40,124 bases of DNA from a virus: IMG/VR virus record IMGVR_UViG_3300029319_000085, positions 10,528 through 50,651 of that record; one strand, written 5' to 3'. Both the position numbers and the translations under genes were made by a program. This document shows, piece after piece, positions 2,807-16,078 of the stretch. How positions within the stretch are numbered: the first letter of the stretch is position 1; every line of letters starts with the position of its first letter. The notes beneath the pieces were generated by a model that saw only the letters and a program-made list of their open reading frames with translations, had not been told where the DNA came from and ran no database searches.

Positions 2807-4258
2807 TCAATACTTATTTATATCGCCTACCGTATTAATTGTTAAGGTCCTAGTCGTAACAGGCTTAATAACATCCTGTTGTAGGTACTTCAACGCTAAC
2901 AAATACTTTCTGTCAGTATTTCCATCGACAAAATTATAAACGCTTATGACATCCTTAATGTTATTTCTTACCTCCTTAAGGGAGTGACCGTGTTTTCTTT
3001 CGGTTCTTCTAAGGAGATAATAGCATTTTAAATTCCACTTGTCGCCAAACGAGCCATTGGCTTTAAATTCTTCAAATGTCATCACTTGTCTGCGAACAAG
3101 TTCACTGCGAGCCTTAAGGCATATGCCTGTCGTATCAGGCTTCAAAATACTTAATACTGGCTGGCGATCAACAAGCGCATTATAAAAGTCTAAAAAATAA
3201 ATCTTTACAATATCCATGTCGGTGCGCCAACACTCAACGTGAGCAGTAGAATAAAATTTAGTGAATATTTCCTCGGCCGTTTCAGCGTTTCGTAAGTCTT
3301 CAAATTCATTGTAACCAACAGCACGTCTTTGGATGTCCTGATACCCTGGTAGCTGTGAGTAACCGTAAGGATCGATTGAGGGAAAGTCAGCCCTAACTAT
3401 TGGATTACCACAGTCATCCTCATTGTTCTCGTTGTTTAAGTCAAAATCCTCAATGGGAACACCAATCATGTATTCTCTCATAGCCCTTGACCGTAAGTCG
3501 GCAACGAATCGCCACGGGGCATTTTGGTCAATACCAAAGCCATACTGTGTGGCCAAGGAGGACACTAAATCAAAATTAGCATCTAAAAAGTATTTTTCAG
3601 ACTTTGCAAAATCTCCATTGTGATCATCTTCACTAGTGCTAATCACTAAGCCACTGTTCAAAGGCGAGCAATAAAAACTTTCCACAAATCCCGAAATGGT
3701 TATCGGCCCAGTAGATTTAGTATACACTTCAACAAAATTAGTAAATACCTTAAGGAAAGAGTTGACGTCTACTATTCTGTCATTCTCGTTTGGAAACGTG
3801 CCAAGATAAAGATTAGAGAACAATGGAAAAACTGTATCAGTCATATAGGTGTGGTATTGTGATGTAACGCTTCTAAATGCTTTTTTAGCCGCAAGATTAG
3901 CATAGGGTCCTGTAGGCTCCATTATACCATCATCTACCAATTGCTTTATTTTGTCAACTAAATCTCTCCAAGCATCAGCGACAAAGTTAATTGCAAACAG
4001 TGGCTCCTCTGAGTCTGTGTGCCGGAGTGGTTTTAGGTAAGTTTCGTTTACAATACTGGCGTTGCCTACATTATTTATCCTTCCAAAAAAATAGTCCTCG
4101 CCCCAGAAATTGAACCTTGCTTGAGGGCCAATAAGAGGGATCACCGAATCTCTATATTTTTCTCTTTGCACAAGCGCCCTGGCTGCGTTTGAATCTGCGT
4201 TCGCAAATGAAAAAAGATATGGTTCTTCAGCGATAGTTGGCTTGGGTGGTTGTGCCAT
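2807..4258 (-). CDS. Probable virion/baseplate protein, 483 aa
   Basis: I do not recognise the family. The protein is soluble, aromatic-rich and without signal peptide, membrane segment or cysteine motif. It contains a short acidic, Asn-rich stretch (LNNENNEDDCGN, about residues 274-285). Its ATG directly follows the stop of the 890-aa tail gene, and it ends the run of tail and baseplate genes just before the DNA polymerase. That position and the tight spacing suggest a baseplate or other structural role, or an assembly partner of the 890-aa protein. This assignment rests on context only. Confidence 0.75.
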   Translation of the reverse strand: MAQPPKPTIAEEPYLFSFANADSNAARALVQREKYRDSVIPLIGPQARFNFWGEDYFFGRINNVGNASIVNETYLKPLRHTDSEEPLFAINFVADAWRDLVDKIKQLVDDGIMEPTGPYANLAAKKAFRSVTSQYHTYMTDTVFPLFSNLYLGTFPNENDRIVDVNSFLKVFTNFVEVYTKSTGPITISGFVESFYCSPLNSGLVISTSEDDHNGDFAKSEKYFLDANFDLVSSLATQYGFGIDQNAPWRFVADLRSRAMREYMIGVPIEDFDLNNENNEDDCGNPIVRADFPSIDPYGYSQLPGYQDIQRRAVGYNEFEDLRNAETAEEIFTKFYSTAHVECWRTDMDIVKIYFLDFYNALVDRQPVLSILKPDTTGICLKARSELVRRQVMTFEEFKANGSFGDKWNLKCYYLLRRTERKHGHSLKEVRNNIKDVISVYNFVDGNTDRKYLLALKYLQQDVIKPVTTRTLTINTVGDINKY

Positions 4259-10886: not shown

Positions 10887-11225
10887 CTACGGATTCTTGA
10901 TAGGCCAGTTAATCTTTGCCTCTCGCTCGAATCTCTTTATAGCAACATCAAGCTTAGATTTTTGCTTGTAGGTCATTGGATCATCCAGACCGTATTTCTT
11001 GATATAGTCCATATATCTTTTTTCGTTTACCAACGCATCGGTAAATCTTGTGACTTCAATACGGTTGCCCCGCACCTTAACAGGGATGCGTCTTCCTTTA
11101 TACATCTTGGAGAGCAAATACTCTATCCAAGCTGCGAAAACGTGAAGTATGTTTTCATTCAGTTCGCCCTTACGGGCAGCACCCAAATCAAATACCATAT
11201 CTTTCAGTTGATCTTCATTAAGCAC
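10887..11225 (-). CDS. Conserved phage protein next to tape measure, 112 aa
   Basis: A small, highly charged helical protein with blocks such as MVFDLGAARKGELNEN (residues 10-25) and EKRYMDYIKKYGLDDPMTYK (68-87). I recall similar short proteins beside tail genes in other marine phages but cannot assign a function. Its place between the gp26-type gene and the tape measure gene is where tail assembly chaperones are often found, so that role is possible. The start is GTG, with GAGG eight bases upstream, and a copy of the CTAYTTAYW element lies 31 bases before it. Confidence 0.7.
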   Translation of the reverse strand: MLNEDQLKDMVFDLGAARKGELNENILHVFAAWIEYLLSKMYKGRRIPVKVRGNRIEVTRFTDALVNEKRYMDYIKKYGLDDPMTYKQKSKLDVAIKRFEREAKINWPIKNP

Positions 11226-11291: not shown

Positions 11292-11555
11292 TTAGCGACT
11301 GCGAGATTTAGCCTTTCTCATAGCATCTTCGTGTTGTTTCGCTTCTCTTTCTTTTTGATCTACCAACCTTTTAATAAACCATCTTCGCAAAATAATAGGA
11401 AGATTGTAAGCCTCAAAAAAGCTCCAACCACCATAATACTTTAGATTAAAGAATTCTTCGTAGATTGATTCAGCGTATTCGTCACTTAGGCCAAAAAAAG
11501 TCGGCAGTAAGCGGCACCTCCAGGGCCGCCGTATGTCCACAGTTGGTACACTCAA
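11292..11555 (-). CDS. Out-of-frame C-terminal extension of gp26-like protein (frameshift product)
   Basis: This frame overlaps the end of the gp26-like gene and continues 190 bases beyond its stop. The 66 residues after the overlap (GLSDEYAESIYEEFF, then GGWSFFEAYNLPIILRRWFI, then a charged tail) look like a real conserved helical domain of the kind seen in phage tail assembly proteins. It has no ATG; the only upstream starts are TTG and GTG inside the zinc-binding codons of gp26, without a Shine-Dalgarno sequence. A run of seven T's on the minus strand (11493-11499) lies just before the gp26 stop, and a +1 or -2 slip on TTT codons there joins the two frames. A programmed frameshift product is therefore the best reading. 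A separate gene with a weak start, or a homopolymer error in the sequence, are the alternatives. Confidence 0.6.
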   Translation of the reverse strand: MSVPTVDIRRPWRCRLLPTFFGLSDEYAESIYEEFFNLKYYGGWSFFEAYNLPIILRRWFIKRLVDQKEREAKQHEDAMRKAKSRSR

Positions 11556-12382: not shown

Positions 12383-12949
12383 TTATTCTGGCTTGGGCGA
12401 TGTAGCAACGCCTGGGAAGCCTATTTCTCTCTCTGCCCAGTCAAAAGCAACTTCAATGGTCAGTTCGAGCATTTCATCCGAAGTATAGTCTAGACTACCA
12501 CCATAATCCACACTTGTTAAGAATGCGTTTTTAAGATTCCATTTTTCAATTGTTTTTCCGTTGCCATCAAGCAGTTCGATTGATGGATTAGGCATGCGAC
12601 CGGGTTTGCCAAATCCATTCTTGCTAAGAGAGCTTGTCCGAGCTTGAGGCTCATTTGGGAAAACATAGCCGGCTTTGCGAATCAAATTATAGAGAACATC
12701 TGTTGGATCGTCAGGTCCTGAGGAGGGGGCCACGAGCGTCACACTGATGGGGTCCCAAGTCAAGCGCCCTGGGAACTTAAGGTTATAGTCAAAATAACTG
12801 TGTTCAATAGTGCTAATATTAGCTTTTGGCATTGTTGCCGTTTTGACAAAGTATTCTTGAAGAACGGTGGTTCCATCACCACCTAACCTAAACTTGTACC
12901 TAAACCGTCTTTTCGGATCAACTGTAGCTTTTGCCCATTCGATTGCCAT
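12383..12949 (-). CDS. 19: Tail tube protein, T4 gp19-like
   Basis: This forms the inner tube of the contractile tail. At 188 aa it is close to T4 gp19 (163). Recognisable family features are an N-terminal FRYKFRLGG followed by YFVKTATMPKANISTIEH (about residues 34-51), the typical 'v...s.P...f.....y.g...k..g' opening of tube subunits, then KFPGRLTWDPISVTLV (59-74), and a C-terminal block YTSDEMLELTIEVAFDWAE. It follows the sheath gene, as in T4 (18 then 19), with a GGGAG site before the ATG. Confidence 0.92.
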   Translation of the reverse strand: MAIEWAKATVDPKRRFRYKFRLGGDGTTVLQEYFVKTATMPKANISTIEHSYFDYNLKFPGRLTWDPISVTLVAPSSGPDDPTDVLYNLIRKAGYVFPNEPQARTSSLSKNGFGKPGRMPNPSIELLDGNGKTIEKWNLKNAFLTSVDYGGSLDYTSDEMLELTIEVAFDWAEREIGFPGVATSPKPE

Positions 12950-12994: not shown

Positions 12995-15900
12995 TTAGTC
13001 CTCAAAACTCGCTCCGCTGTTAGTAACCACGAAGTCGATAGCAAAGAACTCAACAGCACGAGTTGGCTTGACAAGCAACTTAGCGTAGATGATATTTTGG
13101 TCAACTAAGTCCGGTGTCGTTGTTGTTTCGTCTAGAACAAGTCTAAACTCTTCAATACCAAATCTTGCTTTCACATCATCCAAGACACTTGTTGCGTCAG
13201 CTTTGAATTTGTTCCAAGTCGTTTGGACGTTAGGATCAAACAAGAGCCTTGAAGCGATGAATGAAATTTCTCTCTTCAAGTAGATCATCAAACGGCGGAC
13301 GTTGATGCGATCAAGAGCCGAGCGGGTTTGCTGGAGTGTCTTTTGTCCAAAGATGACAATACCTTCAGCAGGGAACTTGGCAATCGGGTTGATATTTGCT
13401 TCGTAAAGATCATCACGTTGATCTTGCGTATACTTTCTCGAAACATCAAGGACTGGAATTCCAGCAGCACCCTCAGTCAGTCCACCCCTGGTAAACCCAG
13501 CAGGTGCGAACCAAGGCCCTTGCCTGTTGTCAGTTGTAGAAAGCACACCCAATGCAGCAACCGATGGCGGCACCCAAAGAGTTCTTTGGGAGATCGAGTC
13601 TCTAATGCGTAGCCAAGGAGCGTATGCTGCACCGTAACTGTTGTTAAGATTTCTATCTTTAAGAGCATCGACAGCCTGAGTCACTGTTGCTGCGTTTCTT
13701 GCGGAGACGCTTTCAGTATTCTCGGTCGATGGAGTATAGATGTTATCAACATCGATAATCGCTAATGCGTCAGCACGCTCTTCAACCGTATCAAGAAGAT
13801 GTTCGGTCACATTGTTCTGGATAATACCAGGCAATGTGATAACATTGTATTGTGCGTCCTCAGGATCAGAGACAATATTGATTGCTCTGCGCAGAGTGTG
13901 CAACTGATACGATGCCTTCTCATCCGTGGCCGTGCTAAATGCGGTGTTACGGAAAGGATCTTTCTCTGTAACATCAAATCCTTCAAAGCCACCGTGGAGA
14001 ACCGTAGTGAATCGATCCAATCCAGCGTTAAGCGCCGAAGAGTATGAAGCATTGAGCCTTGTGAAACTCATAGCAGTGTTGGTTTGCTTAATTGCCCCAG
14101 AAACATACTCAAACCCTTCAGCGGCAGTGCCCGACAACTCATCCAAAGAGAAGTGCCAAGAGATAACCAAAGGATCTTGCGACGCACGGTCCTGATTCGG
14201 ACTTTCTTTCAAGTCGTGATCCGTGCTAGCAGGGTTGGACTGAAGTCCATTCACTCTTGGCTTAAGCATATCAAGGATGCTTTGATTAAATTTAACATCT
14301 CTTGAATTATTGCCGGTCCAAGCTCCCCAGTATGTGTATTCAAGGTTCTTTGGCGAGCCCCAACTGTCCTGCTTACGCAAAGGCACAGACGGGAACACGC
14401 AGGAGGCCGTTAGACCTTGCTGTCCGCCTAATCCACCAAGAATACCTGGTGTGGCGTCAGTGCCTACAGCACCAGAGAAGCCACCAATTGTACCAAATCT
14501 GGCGGCTTGTCCACCGTCAACCATACTGGCAACTGCGCCTCTAGAAGCACTAAGCCCGTTGGTACCAATTACTCCATTACCTGTGCCCGAGACGGAAACA
14601 AGTCCGCCAGAGCCGCTAATAATCGACACAGATCGATATGTCAGCGGGCCAAAGACACCAAATGGCAGCATTTGTGGGTCAGTAACACCAGCATCAACAT
14701 CATCGTCCATCTCTACACGAATGAATTTCGACCTATTTGGGTACTGTCCGTACATTCTATTTCTTTTTTCCGTTGTGTCGTACTCAACGAACTTATCACC
14801 GATCTTTTTAGCGAGATAGTTAGGAGATGCAGGATCTAAATCACAGTTATCATACCGCTCAAGTATAATTGGCTTATTATCGCTGTCCATCAGGTCTCTA
14901 ACTACGACGCTAAATGTTCCGTATTTCTCAAAGTCACCTCTTGGTGCCTTAATCTTTTCAATCGAGATCTTAACTGTGTTCTGCACCCAGTCACCAGGAG
15001 TAAGAGACTCAAAGCGGAAAAGCTTTTGCTGAGCCAAGGCGTCATACGACGAAGTGGTCGTTGTATCCGTCGGATGACTCAGTGCCTGACAGAAGTAAAA
15101 TCCTGTTGTGGACTTCTGCGCACCAAACTGGAAGTCGTTATGATCTTCTGACACAGTTTCCTGGTTGCGCAAAGGCAAAATAGCTGCCCAAGCGGTAGCA
15201 GTGGTAACTGCGGCGTTTCCGAGAGTACTCGAAGCCACCAACTCACCTATTGTTGCCTGTGATCTTGGGAAAAGGCTTTGTTCATATGTTTCACCAAGCC
15301 AGAAAGCTCCACCTTGGCTAGCCGTTGCTGTTGATCTACGAGTAATGGCTGTATTAGTCACCGTAGGATTAGTATTCAACACCTTGCGGATGAAGTTGTT
15401 TTTATCTTTGTTCAAACTAACAGTAACTCTCTCTCTTGAAGCAAAAGTACCATCTTTGGTGATCAAAAGATCAATATCGCCGTTAGTGTTTGTCTTATAC
15501 AGTTCGCTAACCGAAGCTGTGATCTCGGCGTCGGCTCTCGTACCAGAGAGCATAACACGACCGCCTGTGCAGTAAAACACAGCAGCCAAAGCACCAGTCA
15601 CTACTGCGCCCTGGTTGTTGTCTGCGGCATTACTTTGGTTAAGAACCCCCGACGGCCACAAAAAGAGTCCGAAAGCACCACCATTTGCAGGTGTATCGTC
15701 AAGAGTACCGGCTTTCCAGCCTGCTTCGCCACCTGAAGTCTTGTTGGGGTCTTCAACACCAACTGTTCTCATGAACGTGATTGGCGAGGAATTTCTCAAC
15801 CAAGCTTGGGCAGCATAAGGACCATAAGTCGGCCCCATTGTGTTACCATATCTTGAAATATCGCCGGTTTCGTTACCGGGCTGTGGTGCGCCAAAAAGGT

Positions 15901-16078
15901 CTACAAACTCAGAGAACGAATCCACTGTAACTGGTTCCATTGCTGGACCTTTGCGTGCTCTACCAATAACCAATGGTCCAACTGATGCCGGAGTGGCAGG
16001 CAGTTGGCTGTTGTCTATCTCATCAACAAATACGCCTGGAGAAATAAACTTAAACTTTCTTGTGGGATTATCCGCCAT
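12995..16078 (-). CDS. 18: Tail sheath protein, T4 gp18-like, extended
   Basis: The contractile outer tail protein. The N terminus, FISPGVFVDEIDNSQLP (about residues 11-27), is the typical sheath opening (sPGV...E.d.s). The C-terminal domain, GIVIFGQKTLQQ, then RINVRRLMIYLKREISFIA and the closing strand-rich 100 residues, matches the conserved sheath end that forms the inter-subunit mesh. At 1027 aa it is well above T4 gp18 (659). The extra length lies in the middle and includes a Gly/Ser-rich low-complexity stretch at about residues 490-556. Such insertions usually form surface domains on the sheath. A CTATTTATT element lies 62 bases upstream. The start is ATG after a GAGGAGA site. Confidence 0.93.
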   Translation of the reverse strand: MADNPTRKFKFISPGVFVDEIDNSQLPATPASVGPLVIGRARKGPAMEPVTVDSFSEFVDLFGAPQPGNETGDISRYGNTMGPTYGPYAAQAWLRNSSPITFMRTVGVEDPNKTSGGEAGWKAGTLDDTPANGGAFGLFLWPSGVLNQSNAADNNQGAVVTGALAAVFYCTGGRVMLSGTRADAEITASVSELYKTNTNGDIDLLITKDGTFASRERVTVSLNKDKNNFIRKVLNTNPTVTNTAITRRSTATASQGGAFWLGETYEQSLFPRSQATIGELVASSTLGNAAVTTATAWAAILPLRNQETVSEDHNDFQFGAQKSTTGFYFCQALSHPTDTTTTSSYDALAQQKLFRFESLTPGDWVQNTVKISIEKIKAPRGDFEKYGTFSVVVRDLMDSDNKPIILERYDNCDLDPASPNYLAKKIGDKFVEYDTTEKRNRMYGQYPNRSKFIRVEMDDDVDAGVTDPQMLPFGVFGPLTYRSVSIISGSGGLVSVSGTGNGVIGTNGLSASRGAVASMVDGGQAARFGTIGGFSGAVGTDATPGILGGLGGQQGLTASCVFPSVPLRKQDSWGSPKNLEYTYWGAWTGNNSRDVKFNQSILDMLKPRVNGLQSNPASTDHDLKESPNQDRASQDPLVISWHFSLDELSGTAAEGFEYVSGAIKQTNTAMSFTRLNASYSSALNAGLDRFTTVLHGGFEGFDVTEKDPFRNTAFSTATDEKASYQLHTLRRAINIVSDPEDAQYNVITLPGIIQNNVTEHLLDTVEERADALAIIDVDNIYTPSTENTESVSARNAATVTQAVDALKDRNLNNSYGAAYAPWLRIRDSISQRTLWVPPSVAALGVLSTTDNRQGPWFAPAGFTRGGLTEGAAGIPVLDVSRKYTQDQRDDLYEANINPIAKFPAEGIVIFGQKTLQQTRSALDRINVRRLMIYLKREISFIASRLLFDPNVQTTWNKFKADATSVLDDVKARFGIEEFRLVLDETTTTPDLVDQNIIYAKLLVKPTRAVEFFAIDFVVTNSGASFED

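Follow-up and report, generated by a model that had tools for sequence, protein, structure and literature searches.

A conserved +1 frame relation at TTT TTT TGG points to programmed frameshifting in the tail assembly chaperone gene of a T4-like phage clade

In phage lambda, the tail assembly chaperone exists in a short form, gpG, and a long form, gpGT, encoded between the tail tube and tape measure genes (PMC5009743). The 2016 review describing this system considers G-T frameshifting to be widely conserved "except T4" (PMC5009743). For T4-like phages, the tail assembly chaperones were assigned as gp26/gp51 by Vladimirov, Gautam and Davidson in 2022 (Virology 566:9-15), a study represented here by what PMC10885494 and PMC12846349 cite from it and by its title, which proposes a mechanism other than frameshifting for these phages. 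According to PMC10885494, some T4-like phages have both a short gene and a longer one; PMC12846349 refers to the 2022 study in connection with -1 signals at poly-T in the chaperone genes of T4-like phages. Forward (+1) shifts in phage tail genes have been described in the Listeria phages PSA, A118 and A500, which slip at a proline CCC codon, and in the halovirus HSTV-2, in all cases in protein families other than the one considered here (PMC5009743). Our literature search turned up no description of a +1 shift for the PF12322 family, to which the gene analysed below belongs; the 2022 study, known through its citations, may mention some of these phages.

Here we analysed a window of 40,124 nucleotides from the virus record IMGVR_UViG_3300029319_000085, in which, judging from comparative sequence analysis, a gp26-like gene very probably makes a short form (G) and a long form (GT) by a +1 slip at TTT TTT TGG. 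The coordinates of the features are reported in Table 1. The virus is deemed a T4-like phage since gp23, gp20 and a T4-type terminase are encoded on the same contig; a DNA-level search of the window against phages gave no match, and no tRNA genes were found in it. The order of tube gene, chaperone gene, one small ORF and probable tape measure gene is that of a G/GT-type position, as in lambda, where the shift is -1 and not +1. The assignment of the tape measure protein relies on this position and on a BLASTP match (E 2e-6) to the protein that is annotated as tape measure in phage immuto. An earlier note on this DNA had placed the site just upstream of the tape measure gene, which is right as to direction, but the two do not adjoin, as a 112-aa ORF intervenes. 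This ORF begins with GTG and has no Pfam or PHROGs match. The tail sheath protein is unusually long (1027 aa), and its sheath matches are confined to the C-terminal part.

Table 1. Features of the chaperone locus and of neighbouring tail genes in the window
Feature	Position	Strand	Basis or remark
Tail sheath protein	12995-16078	minus	phrog_23, E 2.7e-64
Tail tube protein (gp19-like), upstream neighbour	12383-12949	minus	phrog_4542, E 4.5e-19
gp26-like gene, PF12322 (short form G, 288 aa)	12348-11482	minus	frame 0
Shine-Dalgarno-like GGAGG	11517-11521	minus	20 nt before P-site codon
Proposed slip site TTT TTT TGG	11491-11499	minus	sequence and conservation
T domain, 66 aa, +1 frame	11492-11295, stop 11294-11292	minus	conserved in 79 relatives
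Frame-0 stop TGA, after W P K following the slip	11482-11484	minus	sequence
112-aa ORF between T domain and tape measure gene	10887-11225	minus	
Probable tape measure protein, 926 aa	8097-10877	minus	position and BLASTP match

The short form matches PF12322 with 59.2 bits (E 6e-16), against a curated cut-off of 24.5, and also matches phrog_150. Its predicted model is confident (pLDDT 85), and the two best structural alignments with the PDB have Z 6.2 for YqbN (3klu), a chaperone relative, and Z 5.4 for the tail assembly chaperone of HK97 (2ob9), while the third-best reaches 3.4 and all of them stay below 8; a Foldseek search of the short form against the PDB returned nothing below E 0.001. By themselves the fold alignments of this predicted model are suggestive, and they agree with the synteny and with the naming of gp26/gp51 as chaperones in 2022. 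Gene order and family, together with these fold alignments, lead us to identify the gp26-like gene as encoding the tail assembly chaperone of this T4-like phage.

The gene terminates with GCC GAC TTT TTT TGG CCT AAG TGA. As the earlier note had described, there is a run of seven T on the minus strand (11499-11493) with the frame-0 stop 8 bases on, and an overlapping +1 frame, beginning with GGC CTA AGT GAC GAA, is open for 66 codons; joined to frame 0, this T domain gives a GT of 351 aa. It is also correct that a -1 slip would end almost at once, since the third codon of that frame is a stop (TTG GCC TAA).

A scan of IMG/VR identified 190 relatives, and the best 80 of these, 42-54% identical in the best segment, were fetched. 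One of them, L061, ends before the junction, so that 79 relatives cover it, three of which run off the contig inside the T domain. According to tblastn, the T domain lies in the +1 frame in all 79, with the match beginning at the same residue. Window and relatives were sorted into 54 groups below 85% identity, which carry TTT TTT TGG in 51 cases, TTC TTT TGG in two and TTT CTT TGG in one; the frame-0 stop falls two to four codons past the slip in every group (54/54), and UGG always follows the slip codon. The alignment called for by the earlier note thus finds both slippery codons and frame relation kept across the window and the 79 relatives. The last Phe column is TTT in 52 of 52 cases, compared with a background of 75% TTT among Phe codons. 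Among 121 columns (median 0.04), the four highest values of excess synonymous conservation belong to the two Phe codons, the Gly just after the junction and one Glu; the constraint on the Gly may come in part from the overlapping frame-0 Trp-Pro codons. Binomial P values for the conservation of the site overstate the case because the groups share descent, and a better control is the comparison with conserved columns elsewhere in the gene.

Runs of a single base are prone to sequencing error, and the two frames could in principle have been separated by such an error or by a recent frameshift mutation. The same state recurs at 80 loci, and the records of the cultured phages Mel-JY01, immuto and RM378 show it too; we regard this explanation as excluded, its probability being negligible, because many independent contigs agree. 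A true run of six T, which the earlier note had named as a refuting observation, is therefore no general explanation.

The direction of the shift is indicated by variants in which the T run is broken, namely TTC TTT TGG in L053 and L065, TTT CTT TGG in L075 and phage immuto, and AAC TTT CTA in the megaphage LR756508. Re-pairing of the P-site tRNA one base on is possible with every variant of the clade and of its near relatives (UUU to UUU, CUU to UUU, UUU to UUC). A ribosomal slip of -2 on seven T would give an identical frame, and the window's own run would permit the necessary re-pairing, but no re-pairing two bases back is available at TTC TTT TGG, at TTT CTT TGG or at the TTT CTA of LR756508, which makes this reading very improbable. 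Much the same very low probability is given to slippage of RNA polymerase on the T run, yielding an mRNA one base shorter: most members do have the seven T that it would require, whereas L053, L065, L075, immuto and LR756508 keep the frame relation with interrupted runs. The earlier note had left open whether +1 or -2 joins the frames, and both do lead to the same frame with possible re-pairing in the window; +1 is now preferred because the natural variants re-pair one base on and not two bases back.

Upstream of the slip site, GGAGG spans -28 to -24 relative to UGG and is formed by a conserved GAG codon. Strong anti-Shine-Dalgarno pairing occurs at this position in 89% of the 54 groups, versus 2% in the background, and the Glu column involved is GAG in 46 of 47 cases, compared with 25-64% GAG at other conserved Glu columns. 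By these sequence comparisons, the GGAGG is under selection at the nucleotide level. A +1 slip of YUU onto UUU with a Shine-Dalgarno-like element upstream, as proposed here, is the arrangement of the RF2 gene (prfB) of E. coli, from which the present site differs in having the sense codon UGG in the A site, where prfB has a UGA stop, and in the distance of its GGAGG. Such stimulators lie 3 nt from the slip site in prfB and about 10 nt in dnaX; the GGAGG here is farther, at 20 nt. No downstream RNA structure was found, and one acting as stimulator was rejected given a consensus energy of -0.8 kcal/mol over ~110 nt.

The selected GGAGG also gives substance to a serious rival, in which no frameshift occurs and ribosomes begin the T domain independently, at an internal start in the +1 frame (~-17 to -11) served by this element. 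Start codons at a Shine-Dalgarno-like distance in the +1 frame are indeed present in some relatives (ATG in L053, L065, L073 and L074; GTG in L064; TTG in L038, L045, L075 and L079), and the window carries a CTG there, which is the only start codon that its GGAGG faces. Yet the codon at -14 varies widely (CTG 9, CGG 8, GGG 7, CAG 6, others), 11 of the 54 groups are without ATG, GTG or TTG in the open stretch before +14, and five of them are without even a CTG. In L085, a +1-frame stop lies just upstream, leaving just 8 nt of open frame ahead of UGG, and there is no ATG, GTG or TTG before +91. An internal start would also leave the selection on TTT TTT unexplained, and overall we judge it improbable, if less so than a -2 slip or polymerase slippage. 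The statement that the +1 frame has neither ATG nor Shine-Dalgarno sequence holds for the first part, its first ATG lying only near the end of the frame, but not for the second, given the GGAGG. A start and ribosome-binding site belonging to the downstream domain, which would have spoken against a frameshift, are confined to a minority of the relatives. The ATG in L053, L065, L073 and L074 lies 14 nt before UGG, and a free T protein is possible in these phages.

Programmed +1 frameshifting is thus the reading that we retain. The frame relation, its conservation, the selection on the slippery codons, the protein family and the synteny are established by comparative sequence analysis; that ribosomes actually slip at this site we infer, as we do the rate of slipping and the roles of G and GT. 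The majority of ribosomes would stay in frame 0 past TTT TTT TGG and reach the stop three codons on, releasing G. In a minority, with UGG in the A site, the peptidyl-tRNA-Phe on the second UUU (11496-11494) would re-pair one base on (11495-11493), and translation would continue from GGC to give GT, with a helical domain added at the C-terminus. Should the two forms act as gpG and gpGT do in lambda, G would serve to coat the tape measure protein, and the T domain to recruit the tube protein. Searches of two relatives with contigs of 178,630 and 187,750 bases found only one PF12322 gene in each, and hence no separate long-form gene is seen there.

The T domain has a mean identity of 54% per column and a pN/pS of 0.28 in the +1 frame, a sign of purifying selection, compared with 0.53 in the chaperone body, both being uncorrected proportions with synonymous sites near saturation. 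Measured in this way on aligned sequences, the constraint at the protein level is stronger on the T domain than on the chaperone body. Three helices are predicted with moderate confidence (pLDDT 76), and a fold search with the domain gave nothing significant. Its assignment to DUF6760 (Pfam) was rejected, the match (E 0.0035) being below cut-off. This weak match is colinear and may connect the domain to other contractile systems.

In T4, PF12322 is represented by two paralogs, gp26 and gp51, of which gp51 is extended at its C-terminus. Like the window, T4 pairs a short member of the family with one that is longer at the C-terminus, but it encodes them in two separate genes on opposite strands, whereas the window has one gene and a probable +1 shift. 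The cyanophages P-SSM2 and S-PM2, together with HTVC008M, phiM12, KVP40 and phiW-14 (L110, L111, L113-L116), have a single PF12322 gene and an overlapping, out-of-frame T part at a T run, but in a -1 relation at TTT TT(C/T). Several members of this set have an ATG near the junction and they are often annotated as two genes; in HTVC008M, no ATG, GTG, TTG or CTG was found in the stretch examined. Their T part is commonly annotated separately as "baseplate hub assembly catalyst", and the KVP40 record itself remarks on a likeness to the gp51 C-terminus. In P-SSM2 and S-PM2, a GGAGGG is located ~9-10 nt ahead of the T run of the -1 junction.

Outside the window's clade, the T part is in the +1 frame in Mel-JY01, immuto, LR756508, SP-15, LIS04, Streptococcus phage GXN1, RM378 and seven phage contigs in flavobacterial MAGs; RAS14 has a -1 relation, and LR756511 a stop/start overlap. 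SP-15, LIS04 and GXN1 (L004, L005, L007, ~4190-4235) share NCC CGA plus a T run at their +1 join, and their slip site may differ. In profile comparisons, whose P values are pairwise and without a database background, the T domain of the window's clade matches that of Mel/LR756508/immuto with P 6e-14, that of Firmicute phages with P 4e-6 and that of the cyanophages with P 2.6e-5, and the cyanophage domain matches gp51 with P 5e-8. A direct profile match between the window's T domain and the gp51 C-terminus was not detected, so that the link passes only through the cyanophages. In the tree of the short form, the phages with a -1 relation or two genes are set apart (100/100) from a side that is mostly +1; RAS14, on a long branch, is an exception. 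Phage P1 has a weak PF12322 match below cut-off and no clear T domain, and Microcystis phage Ma-LMM01 has no PF12322 match. The proposal of the earlier note that a programmed frameshift joins the gp26-like protein to a helical domain in the manner of lambda G/GT is supported by the conservation, by the synteny and by the homologues of the gene, gp26/gp51 in T4 and the pair in cyanophages.

The short and long chaperones of T4-like phages were already known, and cyanophages hold the same domain in the -1 frame. What is new, on the strength of the comparisons above, is a widespread +1 version at YUU_UGG together with a selected Shine-Dalgarno-like GGAGG 20 nt upstream. We give about even chances to a broader picture in which one chaperone family has taken three routes to the long form in its deep lineages, namely +1 at YUU_UGG, -1 at a T run (cyanophages and KVP40) and two genes (T4). 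In it, the +1 clade may use a new sense-codon +1 signal with GGAGG 20 nt upstream, a spacing that is not the same in +1 and -1 lineages and might contribute to setting the direction. Automatic annotation of such genomes misses the long form, since the +1 domain passes the curated cut-off of no known family. In a large clade of marine T4-like phages, sequence comparison now speaks strongly for frameshifting that runs forward, the less usual way, and takes place at a sense codon; since the family also includes -1 and two-gene solutions, it offers a natural experiment on changes in the direction of recoding signals and on their loss.
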